Part shown: piece by piece, positions 41,921 to 45,964 of the stretch
Layout of the letters: every line of letters starts with the position of its first letter
Position numbering within the stretch: the stretch's first letter is position 1
Assembly: GCF_004103735.1 (NCBI RefSeq)
Contig: NZ_CP035281.1
Location: 2,232,001 to 2,296,000 of the forward strand
Direction of reading: 5' to 3'
Length of the DNA stretch: 64,000 nucleotides
DNA from: Aminipila luticellarii
Lineage (GTDB): Bacteria; Bacillota; Clostridia; Peptostreptococcales; Anaerovoracaceae
Made by a program: the position numbers and the translations under genes
The notes under the pieces: model-generated
The model's input: the letters and a program-made list of their open reading frames with translations, nothing else
What the model was told of the DNA's origin: nothing
Databases searched by the model: none

Positions 41921-42127
41921 CTACTCGATGATTTGTGTCACGGTGTATCCTGCCTGCTCCACAGCGGCTTTCAGCTCTTCTGTAGACACGGAAGAAGGGA
42001 TTTCTACTTTTGCTTCCTTGTGATCCAGATTCACATCTACCGTAGCACCCTTAAAGGATTCTAAAGCCTCCTTCACATGCTTTACACAGTTCTGACACAT
42101 CATTCCATCAATTTTTAATGTTACCAT
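41921..42127 (-). CDS. copZ: Possible independently translated CopZ-type copper chaperone within copA
   Basis: 68 residues from an internal ATG at 42127, in the same frame as copA. A near-perfect Shine-Dalgarno AGGAGG lies 7-8 nt before it, inside coding DNA. The domain has the MxCxxC copper site (MMCQNC) and the size of a stand-alone CopZ. Separate translation is an inference from the ribosome site. Confidence 0.5.
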   Translation of the reverse strand: MVTLKIDGMMCQNCVKHVKEALESFKGATVDVNLDHKEAKVEIPSSVSTEELKAAVEQAGYTVTQIIE

Positions 42128-44482
42128 TTTACTTTCCTCCTGATTTTTAAATGTATTTTCTTCGGCCATTAGCTGACCTGTATACCGGTTATTATTCCCA
42201 TCGGCGCCCCCTTTAAACATCTTTAACCGAAGAGCATTTGATACCACAAACACGCTGCTGCAGCTCATGGCTGCTGCGGCAAACATGGGATTTAAGCTCC
42301 ACCCGAATAGGGGATAAAAAACACCCGCCGCCAGCGGTATGCCCAGACAGTTATAAAAGAAGGCCCAGAACAAATTCTGTTTTATATTTCTGATAACAGC
42401 CTTGCTTAGCCGGATGGCGGTTACCACATCCAACAGATCATTTTTCATCAGAATAATGTCCGCACTCTCCACTGCCACATCCGTACCTGCTCCGATGGCA
42501 ATGCCTACATCTGCCCGAACCAGTGCCGGAGCATCGTTGATGCCGTCCCCTACCATAGCAACCTTTTTGCCCTGTTTCTGCAGGTCGGACAAGACCTTTT
42601 CCTTTTCCTGAGGCAGGACTTCTGAAATGATCTGATTCAGTTGGAGCTCTCTGCCGATTCCCTCGGCGGTTTTTTTATTGTCTCCTGTCAGCATCGTGAC
42701 CTGAATATTCATATCCCTCAAGGCTTTAATAGCACTCTTGCTGGTGGATTTGACCACATCTGCAACTGCAATAATCCCGATTAAATTCTTAGAATCAGCA
42801 AAGAGCATCGGCGTTTTTCCTTCCGAAGCCAATTGATCCAGCCGGGTCTCGTGCAGGGAGACATGAATACCATTCTCTTCCATCATTCTTTGATTCCCGG
42901 CCAAATAGGTCTGATCTCCAATGACTGCTTTTACCCCTTTGCCGGATACAGATTGAAAATCCCTGACCGGCTCTATAGGGCTCTGCTCCTGCTCTATATA
43001 GTTCATGATCGCCTCGGCCAGCGGATGCTCGCTCCCCTTCTCCAGTCCTCCTGCAATAGCAAGGAGCCTTTCTTTCGTCACGTGAATTGGCAGGACATCT
43101 GTTACAATTGGTTTTCCCTCTGTAATGGTCCCGGTCTTATCCAATACCACACAGTCTACGCTGTGTGCCAATTCTAAAGCTTCTCCGGATTTTATTAAAA
43201 TACCGTTTTCCGCACCCTTGCCGGTACCCACCATAATGGCTACCGGCGTTGCCAGACCCAATGCACACGGGCAGGAAATGACCAGGACGGCAATCGCTTT
43301 GGATAGAGCAAATTCAAACGCTGCTCCCGTCAAAATCCATACGGCCGCAGTGAGCACTGCAATGCCTATGACCACCGGAACAAAGATCCCTGCTATTTTA
43401 TCCGCCAGTTTAGCGATGGGTGCTTTCGTTGCACTGGCATCCTCCACCAGCCTAATGATCTGCGAAAATGTAGTGTCTGCCCCTACTCTTGTAGCTTTAA
43501 CTTTTATAAATCCAGACTTATTGGTAGTCGCTGCGATCACATCCATGCCCGGTTCCTTGTAGACCGGCAGGCTTTCGCCTGTAATGGCCGCTTCATCCAC
43601 ACTGGTGTTTCCCTCCAGGATCGTTCCGTCCACAGGGATGCTGCTTCCTGGCTTTATGAGAACGATTTCTCCGGCTGCCACTTCTTCCACCGGAACCTGC
43701 AGCTGCTGTCCCTGTCTTTCCACCCATGCGGTTTTAGGAGCCAGATCCATTAATTTAGTCAGAGCTTCACTGGTTTTCCCTTTCGATCTTGCCTCTAAAA
43801 ACTTGCCCAGCGTAATTAACGTCAAAATGGTTGCGGCTGATTCAAAATATAAGTCCATACTATATTTTGATACCATGTGCATATCCGCCATTCCCATTCC
43901 ATAGCTCATCCGGTAAATAGCGAAGATGCCATACAGCAAGGCTGCCGAGGAGCCTATGGCAATCAGGCTGTCCATATTAGGTGCGCCATGAAATAAGGTC
44001 TTAAATCCTTTTGTAAAATAATTTTGGTTGATATATACAATCGGCAGACACAGCAGAAATTGCGTGAACGCAAAAGTGATTGCATTTTCATGGCCCATAA
44101 GGAAGCCCGGCAAGGGCAGATGGAGCATATGACCCATAGCAAGATACATCAGCGGAATCAGAAATCCAAAGGAGATCCACAGTCGTTTTTTCATATTCTG
44201 TAATTGCTCTTCTACCGGATTACTTTTGGAACCTTCCGCCTTTATATCTTTTACCTTTCTCAAATTTTGCGATTCCTCCAAAGAAGCACCGTACCCTGCA
44301 TGTTCTACCGCTGTAATGATCTGTTGATCGGATAAGGCGCTTTCTTCGTATTCCACCTGCATGCTGTTTGTCAACAGGTTTACGCTTACATTCAAAACTC
44401 CGGGGAGCTTCGTCACACTTTTTTCAACGTGTGATGAGCAGGCGGAGCATGTCATGCCGGTCACGTTAAATTTTTGTTTCAT
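41921..44482 (-). CDS. copA: Copper-exporting P-type ATPase with C-terminal CopZ domain
   Basis: 853 residues. N-terminal HMA domain with GMTCSAC (residues 9-15), P1B transmembrane motif CPCALG near 400, phosphorylation motif DKTGTITEG near 448, and the GDGINDAPAL hinge. Residues 786-853 are a second, C-terminal HMA domain (MVTLKIDGMMCQNCVKHV) that looks like a free CopZ chaperone joined in frame. The linker DNA still contains AGGAGGAAAGTAAA before Met786 (42127), so CopZ may also be made on its own. Exports Cu+ at the membrane. Downstream of csoR. Confidence 0.93.
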   Translation of the reverse strand: MKQKFNVTGMTCSACSSHVEKSVTKLPGVLNVSVNLLTNSMQVEYEESALSDQQIITAVEHAGYGASLEESQNLRKVKDIKAEGSKSNPVEEQLQNMKKRLWISFGFLIPLMYLAMGHMLHLPLPGFLMGHENAITFAFTQFLLCLPIVYINQNYFTKGFKTLFHGAPNMDSLIAIGSSAALLYGIFAIYRMSYGMGMADMHMVSKYSMDLYFESAATILTLITLGKFLEARSKGKTSEALTKLMDLAPKTAWVERQGQQLQVPVEEVAAGEIVLIKPGSSIPVDGTILEGNTSVDEAAITGESLPVYKEPGMDVIAATTNKSGFIKVKATRVGADTTFSQIIRLVEDASATKAPIAKLADKIAGIFVPVVIGIAVLTAAVWILTGAAFEFALSKAIAVLVISCPCALGLATPVAIMVGTGKGAENGILIKSGEALELAHSVDCVVLDKTGTITEGKPIVTDVLPIHVTKERLLAIAGGLEKGSEHPLAEAIMNYIEQEQSPIEPVRDFQSVSGKGVKAVIGDQTYLAGNQRMMEENGIHVSLHETRLDQLASEGKTPMLFADSKNLIGIIAVADVVKSTSKSAIKALRDMNIQVTMLTGDNKKTAEGIGRELQLNQIISEVLPQEKEKVLSDLQKQGKKVAMVGDGINDAPALVRADVGIAIGAGTDVAVESADIILMKNDLLDVVTAIRLSKAVIRNIKQNLFWAFFYNCLGIPLAAGVFYPLFGWSLNPMFAAAAMSCSSVFVVSNALRLKMFKGGADGNNNRYTGQLMAEENTFKNQEESKMVTLKIDGMMCQNCVKHVKEALESFKGATVDVNLDHKEAKVEIPSSVSTEELKAAVEQAGYTVTQIIE

Positions 44483-44497
44483 CCCTTCATCTCCTGT

Positions 44498-44761
44498 CTA
44501 TTTCATTATCTTACCCAACATCCCGATTAATTCATCGATTTTTTCTTCTCTTTCCTGTGCCGTCTCCGCGTTATTCACACAAGATTTAAGATGTGCCGAT
44601 AAGACCTCTCTGTTCGTAGTATTTAAAATAGCGGCAGCCGCCATAAGCTGATGTGAAATGTCAATACAATATCTGTCCTCCTCCACCATTTTTATAATGC
44701 CGTCAATCTGCCCTCTAGCTGTTTTCAACAGTTTTAATACTTTACCTTTATCTGCTTTCAA
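44498..44761 (-). CDS. csoR: Copper-sensing transcriptional repressor CsoR
   Basis: 87 residues, all-helical CsoR/RcnR family. The Cu(I) ligands are present in the expected spacing: Cys32 (RYCIDI), His57 and Cys61 (SAHLKSC). ARGQIDGIIKMVEEDRYC is the family signature. Represses the operon until copper binds. First gene, 15 nt before copA, with an operator at its promoter. Confidence 0.92.
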   Translation of the reverse strand: MKADKGKVLKLLKTARGQIDGIIKMVEEDRYCIDISHQLMAAAAILNTTNREVLSAHLKSCVNNAETAQEREEKIDELIGMLGKIMK

Positions 44762-44815: not shown

Positions 44816-44844
44816 AATTTACAATAAAAAAAACATTTTGTCAA
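44816..44844 (-). promoter_or_regulatory. Promoter of csoR-copA
   Basis: Minus strand TTGACA (44844-44839), 17 bp, TAAATT (44821-44816). A consensus -35 with the operator overlapping the start of transcription. Confidence 0.75.
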
Positions 44845-44848
44845 CCCG

Positions 44849-44874
44849 TACTCTACAAATAAAAAGGGATTGGG
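44849..44874 (+). repeat. 26-bp target-site duplication, left copy
   Basis: Identical to 45939-45964. Directly abuts the TGTAGG end of the insertion sequence. Confidence 0.85.
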
Positions 44875-45938
44875 TGTAGGATTACAATACATGTGTTACA
44901 TTAAGACAAAAAATAAATACGGGAAACGCTAAAATTGTGTTATGCTTAATTCCTCACAAACCAAAACATCACAAATTGGAGGTCTCCCGTATGGCAAGTA
45001 TAACACAAGATATGAAATATCGTCTATCCTTAATTAAATATGCTCAAAGATTTGGCGTTACAAAAGCTGCTATCAGATATCATCACAACAGGCAATATAT
45101 TTATCGTTGGTTGCGTAGATATGATGGTTCTATTGAGTCCCTGAGAGAACTTTCTCGTAAGCCTCATTCCCATAAAAATCAGCATACTGCAAATGAGCTT
45201 AAACTCATTCATGATATGCGTCGTAGGAATCCAAATGCAGGTCTTGTTGTCTTTTGGGTCAAACTGCGACAGCGTGGGTATTCCAGATCCATTACTGGGC
45301 TTTATCGAGTACTAATCAAGCAATCTTTGATCCCTAAGAAACCTCAGAATCCTAAATATATTGCTAAAAAATATGAGCAAATGGAGTATCCAGGTCAAAG
45401 AGTACAAATTGATGTTAAATTTGTTCCATCCTCTTGCCTTGTTGGCGAAGCTTCTGATAAGAAATTCTATCAATATACTGCTATTGATGAATTCTCTCGT
45501 TTTAGATATCTTGCTGCTTTTGAGGAACACAGCTCTTATTCTGCTTCTGAATTCCTTAAACAAGTTATTAAAGCTTTCCCATTTAAGATCGTGTTCAGAC
45601 CGATAATGGACAGGAATTTACAAAACGTCTTGGTACTTCTAAAAATCCAACGTTAACGCTATTCCAACGGACTCTTAAGGAACAAGGTATTATCCATAAA
45701 ATGATAAGGCCTTATACTCCAAGACATAATGGTAAAGTGGAACGCTCACATCGTAAGGATAATGAATATTTTTATGCGATAGCAAAGTTCTACTCATTCA
45801 ATGATTTTAAATTACAACTAAAAAAGCATAATGCAAACTACAATAACTTTCCTATGCGCCCTTTGGGCTGGGTTTCCCCAAGAGAAACTCTATTTAATTT
45901 TTTGAAGCACGGTGTAACATATGTTTGACAAACCTACA
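44875..45938 (+). mobile_element. IS481-like insertion sequence (1064 bp)
   Basis: Ends TGTAGG...CCTACA. About 25-bp imperfect terminal inverted repeats: TGTAGGATTACAATACATG on the left and, reversed, TGTAGGTTTGTCAAACATA on the right. It carries one DDE transposase gene and is bounded by perfect 26-bp direct repeats. Inserted just upstream of the csoR promoter. Confidence 0.88.
44991..45928 (+). pseudogene. IS481-like transposase with a frameshift
   Basis: Begins MASITQDMKYRLSLIKY after GGAGGTCTCCCGT. N-terminal HTH, then the integrase core: QVQIDVK-type first Asp (GQRVQIDVKFVP) and, after the shift, TDNGQEF with the second Asp and HNGKVERSHRKD with the Glu. Near 45590-45600 the frame moves, splitting the gene into a first part ending at 45656 and a second from about 45600 to 45928. 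All DDE residues remain, so a 1-nt error or mutation is enough to explain it; the copy is probably inactive. Confidence 0.85.
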
Positions 45939-45964
45939 TACTCTACAAATAAAAAGGGATTGGG
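45939..45964 (+). repeat. 26-bp target-site duplication, right copy
   Basis: Same sequence as 44849-44874 (starts TACTCTACAAATAAAAAGGG). Confidence 0.85.

Follow-up and report, generated by a model that had tools for sequence, protein, structure and literature searches.

IS481-related insertion sequences of Clostridia with 25-26 bp target duplications appear to integrate at a fixed distance from host promoters

The window, a 64,000-nucleotide stretch of the Aminipila luticellarii genome (contig NZ_CP035281.1, positions 2,232,001 to 2,296,000), contains a short IS481-like insertion sequence (IS) between two copies of a 26-bp sequence. This raises the question of whether so long a target site duplication (TSD) is made by the element itself, and if so, what fixes its length, since TSDs of IS481 members are given as 2-15 bp in the available part of PMC10045372, as opposed to 25-26 bp in the family of the window element. 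The original prediction had described perfect 26-bp direct repeats bounding TGTAGG/CCTACA ends, and this was borne out: the element starts with TGTAGG and ends with CCTACA, and the 26-mers at 44849-44874 and 45939-45964 are identical and adjoin both ends of the 1064-bp element. The repeat scores 26, compared with a best score of 14 in a control in which left and right flanks were swapped between loci (300 pairs), and is therefore not a product of chance. Two points absent from the original prediction are that the window copy falls 4 bp short of the length of the other full-length copies, and that its transposase gene is frameshifted, the frame being broken by a 4-bp deletion near 45591. The features of the element are as follows.

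44875..45938, plus strand: insertion sequence of the IS481-related long-TSD clade, defective copy, 1064 bp
44849..44874, no strand: left copy of the 26-bp target site duplication
45939..45964, no strand: right copy of the 26-bp target site duplication
44875..44900, plus strand: left terminal repeat region, TGTAGGATTACAATACATGTGTTACA
45913..45938, minus strand: right terminal repeat region, read on that strand as TGTAGGTTTGTCAAACATATGTTACA
44991..45656, plus strand: 5' part of the transposase gene, frameshifted, with ATG at 44991 behind GGAGG
45701..45928, plus strand: 3' part of the transposase gene, in a different frame

The source genome, a single contig of 2.75 Mb (label G000), contains nine full-length copies of the element, one right-truncated copy and one 39-bp remnant. 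The eight other full-length copies are 1068 bp long and carry an intact 313-aa frame behind a GGAGG ribosome-binding site. A perfect TSD flanks every one of the nine full-length copies, with a length of 26 bp in four and of 25 bp in five (26, 26, 25, 26, 25, 25, 25, 26 and 25 bp in L001-L008 and L010; L009 coincides with L005), and no two of the duplicated sequences are alike. Short duplications at the other copies had been named as a finding that would speak against the long TSD, and none was seen among these nine. The tenth copy (L011, G000:C1:704378-708284), 907 bp long, truncated at its right end and without a TSD, is decayed, as is the 39-bp remnant (L012, G000:C1:215000-216800). Because the nine copies duplicate unrelated sequences, the length of the TSD is intrinsic to the element and the target was not repeated beforehand. 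The opposite reading takes the 26-bp repeat as older than the insertion, either a repeated target or something left by another element, and the real TSD as short. It would have to account for nine unrelated repeats of 25-26 bp adjoining both ends, and for dozens of relatives that behave alike; nothing was found in its favour, it is ruled out by the nine different TSDs, and its probability is negligible. The suspicion that an empty site might already hold two 26-mers found no support in the csoR region of two same-genus genomes (G002, G003), where neither an IS nor a second 26-mer is present; a single 26-mer is also unseen in these two regions, the upstream DNA being too diverged to show one.

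Relatives of the element occur in 24 of 349 genomes of the family Anaerovoracaceae, the source genome included, and in 34 of 391 sampled genomes of the class Clostridia, with transposase identities of about 38-74%; for the named Clostridia genomes, the best 80 of 506 confirmed loci were taken. Mostly distant relatives were found at 31 viral-contig loci and further relatives in two phage records, and plasmids, among 30 of 72 records listed, yielded only distant IS481 members and one partial relative. For the measurement of TSDs, insertions were taken if both ends were recognised and both flanks were 45 bp or longer, with one insertion per distinct left flank, giving 87 clade insertions. A long TSD is present in 57 of these, with lengths of 24 bp (2 insertions), 25 bp (26), 26 bp (24) and 27 bp (5), and no long TSD was detected in the remaining 30 by the score used. 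True clade TSDs score about 20 or more, compared with the best of 14 in the 300 swapped-flank pairs. Four clade loci added later (L309, L310, L312, L241) have no TSD, and among the 31 viral-contig loci a TSD was seen in one (L270, 26 bp, with a promoter at TSD+4, i.e. beginning 4 bp beyond the TSD edge).

Some individual insertions deviate in other ways. In a Syntrophomonadaceae metagenome-assembled genome (L102, JAAZDI010000166.1), which is one of the 30, an exact 14-bp TSD adjoins both ends and there is no promoter at TSD+4; being about one helical turn shorter than the TSDs of its relatives, it may be an instance of the discrete steps described in the available text of PMC10045372. In three unrelated insertions (L028, L108, L152) an extra TG lies between the TSD and the left end (TG-TGT..), and these bases are possibly the junction bases of a circular intermediate.

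The intact transposase of the window family is a single open reading frame of 313 aa. It has a DDE core, matching rve at 51.2 bits (cut-off 32.6) and rve_3 at 33.4 bits (cut-off 26.5), and matches to HTH_23, HTH_28 and HTH_32 lie below their cut-offs. The best NCBIfam model is that of IS481 (NF033577), with 198.7 bits, below the curated cut-off of 224; relatives reach 207-214 bits, also under 224, and all 27 clade members matched against this model hit it. Like IS481, the clade has one DDE transposase, about 300 aa long and with a helix-turn-helix at its N terminus, and TGT..ACA ends, the exception being three copies in one genome (L031, L049 and L053, in G092) whose right end is ..AACTAAGA (..AGA) and not ..ACA, giving TNT..ANA termini. 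These resemble the TNT..AYA termini of IS481EU from Trichomonas, as given in the accessible part of PMC10045372. The predicted transposase structure has a mean pLDDT of 85.2 and a pTM of 0.58, and the nearest solved structures are IstA of IS21 (8q4d, E 8.9e-15), followed by PFV intasomes and TnsB, so that by fold the IS21, retroviral and TnsB transpososomes are nearest to the clade transposase. IS21 differs from the clade in having a second protein, IstB, and short TSDs.

A tree was built from 48 transposases (28 clade, 14 IS1202-type and 6 IS481 rows). The 28 clade rows lie on one side of a 99/98 branch, and a 100/100 branch sets apart the 14 IS1202-type rows, with the clade elsewhere; four plasmid IS481 rows fall beside the clade and two further IS481 rows outside it, and there is a long-branch warning elsewhere in the tree. 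With only six IS481 rows, the tree supports a clade that stands apart from the sampled IS481 and IS1202 members. Together with the TSD lengths, the sequence comparisons support the view that the long TSD characterises an entire clade of IS481-related elements in Clostridia, which are short (about 1.05-1.2 kb) and have a single ORF, and the earlier suggestion that the element may mark a separate group has held up to this extent.

The IS1202 family had been brought in for comparison, as a related family with duplications of similar length, and the window element could be thought of as a small member of it. A TSD of 25-26 bp falls within the 16-28 bp group of IS1202, TG..CA-type ends are shared, and promoter targeting, as described below, appears common to both. 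Nevertheless, the transposase is 313 aa long, compared with 394-507 aa in the published set (PMC10132070, as far as its available part shows), and scores only 44.2 bits (cut-off 250) on the ISNCY model (NF033594), which NCBI annotation puts on IS1202-type elements, as opposed to 198.7 bits on the IS481 model. The residue seven positions after the catalytic E is N in the window family, as opposed to the Q of the IS1202 criterion; in ten aligned rows this position is N in five, Q in three and G in two. The right end of the clade is TTGACAAACCTACA and not TTGACA, and the two groups are separate in the tree, each on one side of a well-supported branch. Membership of IS1202 was rejected on the ISNCY score and the tree position and is very improbable; the comparison stands for TSD length and target, and fails for the transposase.

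The window element is inserted upstream of a csoR-type gene, and the adjacent sequence reads, away from the left end, as a promoter.

44839..44844, minus strand: TTGACA, the -35 hexamer of the host promoter of csoR, 4 bp past the TSD edge
44816..44821, minus strand: -10 hexamer TAAATT of the csoR promoter, with a 17-bp spacer
44498..44761, minus strand: csoR-type metal-sensitive repressor gene (Pfam Trns_repr_metal) served by this promoter
41921-44482: putative copA-like P-type ATPase gene, following csoR, named from reading the ORF

In the source genome, nine of nine full copies have a sigma70-type promoter whose -35 hexamer lies at an offset of 28-30 from one end, the left end in eight cases and the right end in one. 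Promoters were scored with self-set weights based on the general consensus. Across the clade, a promoter with its -35 hexamer at 29-31 nt is found in 61 of 110 left flanks and 28 of 106 right flanks, compared with 1.4% of 5616 windows at other offsets, and among 84 insertions with both flanks the promoter is on the left only in 46, on the right only in 21, on both sides in 2 and on neither in 15. For a test tied to the TSD, the four insertions whose left end is shifted by 1-2 bp (L028, L091, L108, L152) were set aside from the 57 with a TSD, leaving 53. In 45 of these the -35 hexamer of a sigma70-type promoter stands at exactly TSD+4 (31 on the left, 14 on the right). Away from the 3-5 range, an offset is occupied in 0.51 of 53 insertions on average and in 3 of 53 at the most. 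TSDs of 25, 26 and 27 bp pair with -35 offsets of 29, 30 and 31, the offset minus the TSD being 4 in 42 of 53 TSD-plus-promoter pairs. Moreover, when the 53 left flanks are compared with no promoter model and without selecting a side, conservation is highest at +4, +5, +6, +27, +32 and +28. The four insertions with a shifted left end fit TSD+4 when the additional 1-2 bp are assigned to the element, and 24 of the 30 insertions without a long TSD keep a promoter with its -35 hexamer at 29-31 nt of one end (score of at least 5). A promoter register of the clade insertions is, on these sequence patterns, almost certain.

Eight of the 53 clean insertions failed the TSD+4 test. Two fell narrowly under the threshold (L008 at 5.3 and L092 at 5.4), and two (L094, L131) have TTGACA/TTGATG at +4 with no -10 hexamer, from which it could be that a -35 hexamer alone suffices. 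In L037, L063 and L157 nothing convincing is found at TSD+4. In L072 (CANQMH010000027.1) the TSD is an inverted repeat (ggttagtatttta/ttaaatactaacc) and TTGACA stands at +6 and not at +4.

Such a register bears on a rival explanation, namely that there is no targeting, that elements insert at random and that only intergenic sites upstream of promoters survive selection. Genes do stay intact with insertions in these positions. Selection of this kind, however, could not produce a 1-bp register at the TSD edge, with 45 of 53 insertions at +4 as opposed to at most 3 of 53 at any offset outside 3-5, and a conventional IS481 element under the same kind of selection has no register. In that control, from another Clostridia genome, 21 of 26 copies have a 6-bp TSD, and no offset is occupied by a promoter in more than one (left) or two (right) of the 26 copies; unlike the clade, the conventional IS481 tested is therefore without promoter targeting. 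Random insertion with selection is ruled out on these two counts and is scarcely credible. Among the papers listed in the literature search, judged by title and opening of the abstract, none dealt with promoter-register targeting by an IS, ISfinder and most subscription journals lying outside that search.

The targets also have the properties expected of working promoters. When oriented, clade targets show TTGA at -35 and an extended -10 element, TGnTATAAT, which is more than the promoter model required; the TTG of the -35 hexamer is present in 96-100% of them. A -10 hexamer follows a threshold-passing -35 hexamer in 93% of targets. For -35-like hexamers of matched quality in host sequence (365 kb), the figure is 5.2% of 7774, and for those in intergenic regions 9.3% of 1599. 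The csoR promoter itself, TTGACA-17-TAAATT, is conserved in the same-genus genome G003, which is without the IS. Downstream of these promoters in the source genome lie csoR, a MocR-type regulator gene, thrS (preceded by a T-box leader), genes for a GGDEF response regulator and an ArgZ-like enzyme, gmk, a polysaccharide deacetylase gene and greA, and the ninth copy (L005) has no downstream ORF by the rule used. Taking clade and IS1202-type elements together, RNA features on the right strand begin shortly after the predicted start, at 8, 11 and 19 nt for T-boxes, 10 nt for an L10 leader, 14 nt for a tRNA, 45 nt for tmRNA and 46 nt for SRP RNA; the other seven of the 14 RNA matches in the loci are further away or on the other side. 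Judged by what they lead into (T-box leaders, SRP RNA, csoR, gmk, greA), the predicted target promoters are real ones.

A comparable arrangement is seen in elements of IS1202 type (NF033594), which were collected from 299 sampled genomes of the phylum. Of 50 loci, 32 passed the filters (repeat score of at least 15, repeat length of at most 40, distinct, flanks of 130 bp or longer). After inspection, the edge of the TSD was shifted one base, nearly every repeat having begun with the apparent last base of the right end. With this edge the -35 hexamer stands directly at the TSD edge (TSD+0) on the left side in 29 of 32 insertions and on the right side in none, and in all 32 the best promoter on the left is no more than 3 bp from that edge. 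The TSDs range from about 14 to 29 bp, mostly 16-18 or 26-28. Among ten IS1202-type loci added later, six are without a TSD and the remaining four all fit the TSD+0 rule with the moved edge; all five plasmid copies of IS1202 type from Enterococcus and Klebsiella lack a TSD. Three of the Enterococcus plasmid copies (L305, L306, L307) lie, without a TSD, upstream of the resistance gene cfr(D), and in L305 a TTTACT-17-TAAAAT promoter, read by eye, begins 28 nt from the left end. The long-TSD IS1202 group is thus like the clade in its long TSDs and in insertion just upstream of the -35 hexamer, and unlike it in having a larger, distinct transposase, a near cut at the -35 hexamer (TSD+0, not +4) and a left end that alone faces the promoter, whereas either end does so in the clade. 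Two related families therefore keep two different constant distances from the -35 hexamer, IS1202 in one orientation and the clade in both. The paper defining the IS1202 family, in its available part, reports no conserved target for the long-TSD members (PMC10132070).

Taken together, these data make it highly probable that the window element belongs to a distinct IS481-related clade of autonomous-type DDE insertion sequences that integrate beside host promoters at a fixed register. One joining point lies 4 bp upstream of the -35 hexamer, at about -40 from the transcription start, and the other 25 or 26 bp further upstream, at about -65/-66. Filling of the staggered gap would produce the TSD of 25-26 bp, so that the duplicated segment would be the one from -40 to -66. 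The anchor appears to be the -35 end and not the -10 end of the promoter, since the hexamer stays at TSD+4 whether the TSD is 25, 26 or 27 bp, and does so in the few cases with a spacer of 16, 18 or 19 bp. With non-17-bp spacers the -35 hexamer is still at +4 in four of six clade cases, the others being at +5 and +8, and in IS1202-type insertions it is at the TSD edge in four of six. The promoter may be faced by either end of the clade element, the left being commoner (31:14).

Strand transfer would then be directed by a promoter complex, in the simplest case promoter-bound sigma/RNA polymerase, with the upstream DNA gripped by the transpososome, and such polymerase-guided integration is likely. 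Sigma region 4 sits at the -35 hexamer and the alpha C-terminal domains bind upstream of it. The side of polymerase serving as landing platform would be formed by sigma region 4 and the alpha C-terminal domains, which would hold the segment from -40 to -66. The wider proposal, that promoter-bound RNA polymerase is the landing platform for at least two IS families (the IS481-related long-TSD clade and long-TSD IS1202) and that TSDs of 16-28 bp represent its footprint, is favoured by a modest degree.

The main rival to this proposal is that the transposase itself reads promoter DNA of the -35/-10 kind with no host protein involved. The near-invariant TTG of the -35 hexamer would fit such recognition, as would the two insertions with a -35 hexamer and no -10 hexamer (L094, L131), and the TTGACA in the right end of the element means that its DNA-binding domain may know this hexamer. 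Nevertheless, a properly spaced -10 hexamer accompanies 93% of targets as opposed to 5-9% of host -35-like hexamers, the TG of the extended -10 element is conserved, and a 313-aa protein would need to recognise the two hexamers despite differences in spacer length, in the way that sigma does. Direct reading by the transposase is accordingly a minority possibility, though a substantial one, and its narrowest form, recognition of a bare -35 sequence, is strongly disfavoured by the frequency of -10 hexamers in targets relative to the 5.2% and 9.3% of the controls.

The ends of the element carry two halves of a further promoter, which a circular form would bring together.

45925..45930, plus strand: TTGACA of the right end, which would supply the -35 hexamer of a predicted circle-junction promoter
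44883..44888, plus strand: TACAAT of the left end, which would supply the -10 hexamer of this predicted promoter

The mobile form would be circular, with about 1 bp separating the two ends, and the junction so formed would constitute a strong promoter, TTGACA-17-TACAAT, expressing the transposase. Of 73 distinct end pairs, 62 give TTGACA-17-TACAAT or a near variant with a 1-bp joint; the junction promoter threshold is passed by every pair, compared with 10% in the reverse reading, and the median score is 13.5, compared with 5.6. The ends differ at the very places that a junction promoter requires, with TTGACA in the right end and TACAAT in the left, as expected of elements that move as circles, and circles formed in copy-out/paste-in transposition are known for IS3-type elements. 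A scan of viral contigs for circle junctions gave no matches. In IS1202-type elements such as L189, L190 and L206 the right end finishes with TTGACA and the left apparently has GATAAT/GATATT near position 15-20, so that by eye these ends seem able to form a junction promoter as well, with a spacer of about 3 bp.

Several known systems share parts of this behaviour. The ISAjo2 subgroup of IS1202 inserts at a fixed distance and orientation relative to the site of a host protein, 5 bp from the XerC site, and is unlike the clade in that its targets are dif/pdif and its TSD is 5 bp (PMC10132070, available part). TSD classes near 5, 15 and 25 bp are given for IS1202 and IS481EU in the portion of PMC10045372 at hand. 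IS481EU, the DNA transposons of parabasalids, are like the clade in being IS481-related, with TNT..AYA ends and TSDs of about 4, 15 or 25 bp (same source and portion). These are eukaryotic elements, compared here by description only, whereas the clade is a bacterial IS481-related lineage in which the class of about 25 bp is the rule. As to the origin of long TSDs, the available part of PMC10045372 offers a speculation about the geometry of the subunits and names no promoter target.

By landing upstream of the -35 hexamer, the element would leave the core promoter of the host gene intact, and insertion would be cheap for the host for this reason. Eukaryotic elements that target RNA polymerase III promoters are likewise cheap for their hosts. 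The yeast retrotransposons Ty1 and Ty3 integrate upstream of genes by tethering to a polymerase promoter complex, and are unlike the clade in being eukaryotic, in using RNA polymerase III and in having a 5-bp TSD.

The register offers a testable cause for long TSDs, which are left unexplained in the available parts of PMC10045372 and PMC10132070. The target of a bacterial transposon would be a promoter, perhaps a transcription complex, met with single-base precision, and the spread of such elements without the killing of genes would become explicable. Moreover, active -35 positions could be read from the genomes of uncultured bacteria by way of TSD edges. If RNA polymerase is indeed the platform, these elements would be bacterial counterparts of the yeast elements that use polymerase III promoters, and the edges of their TSDs would mark -35 positions.
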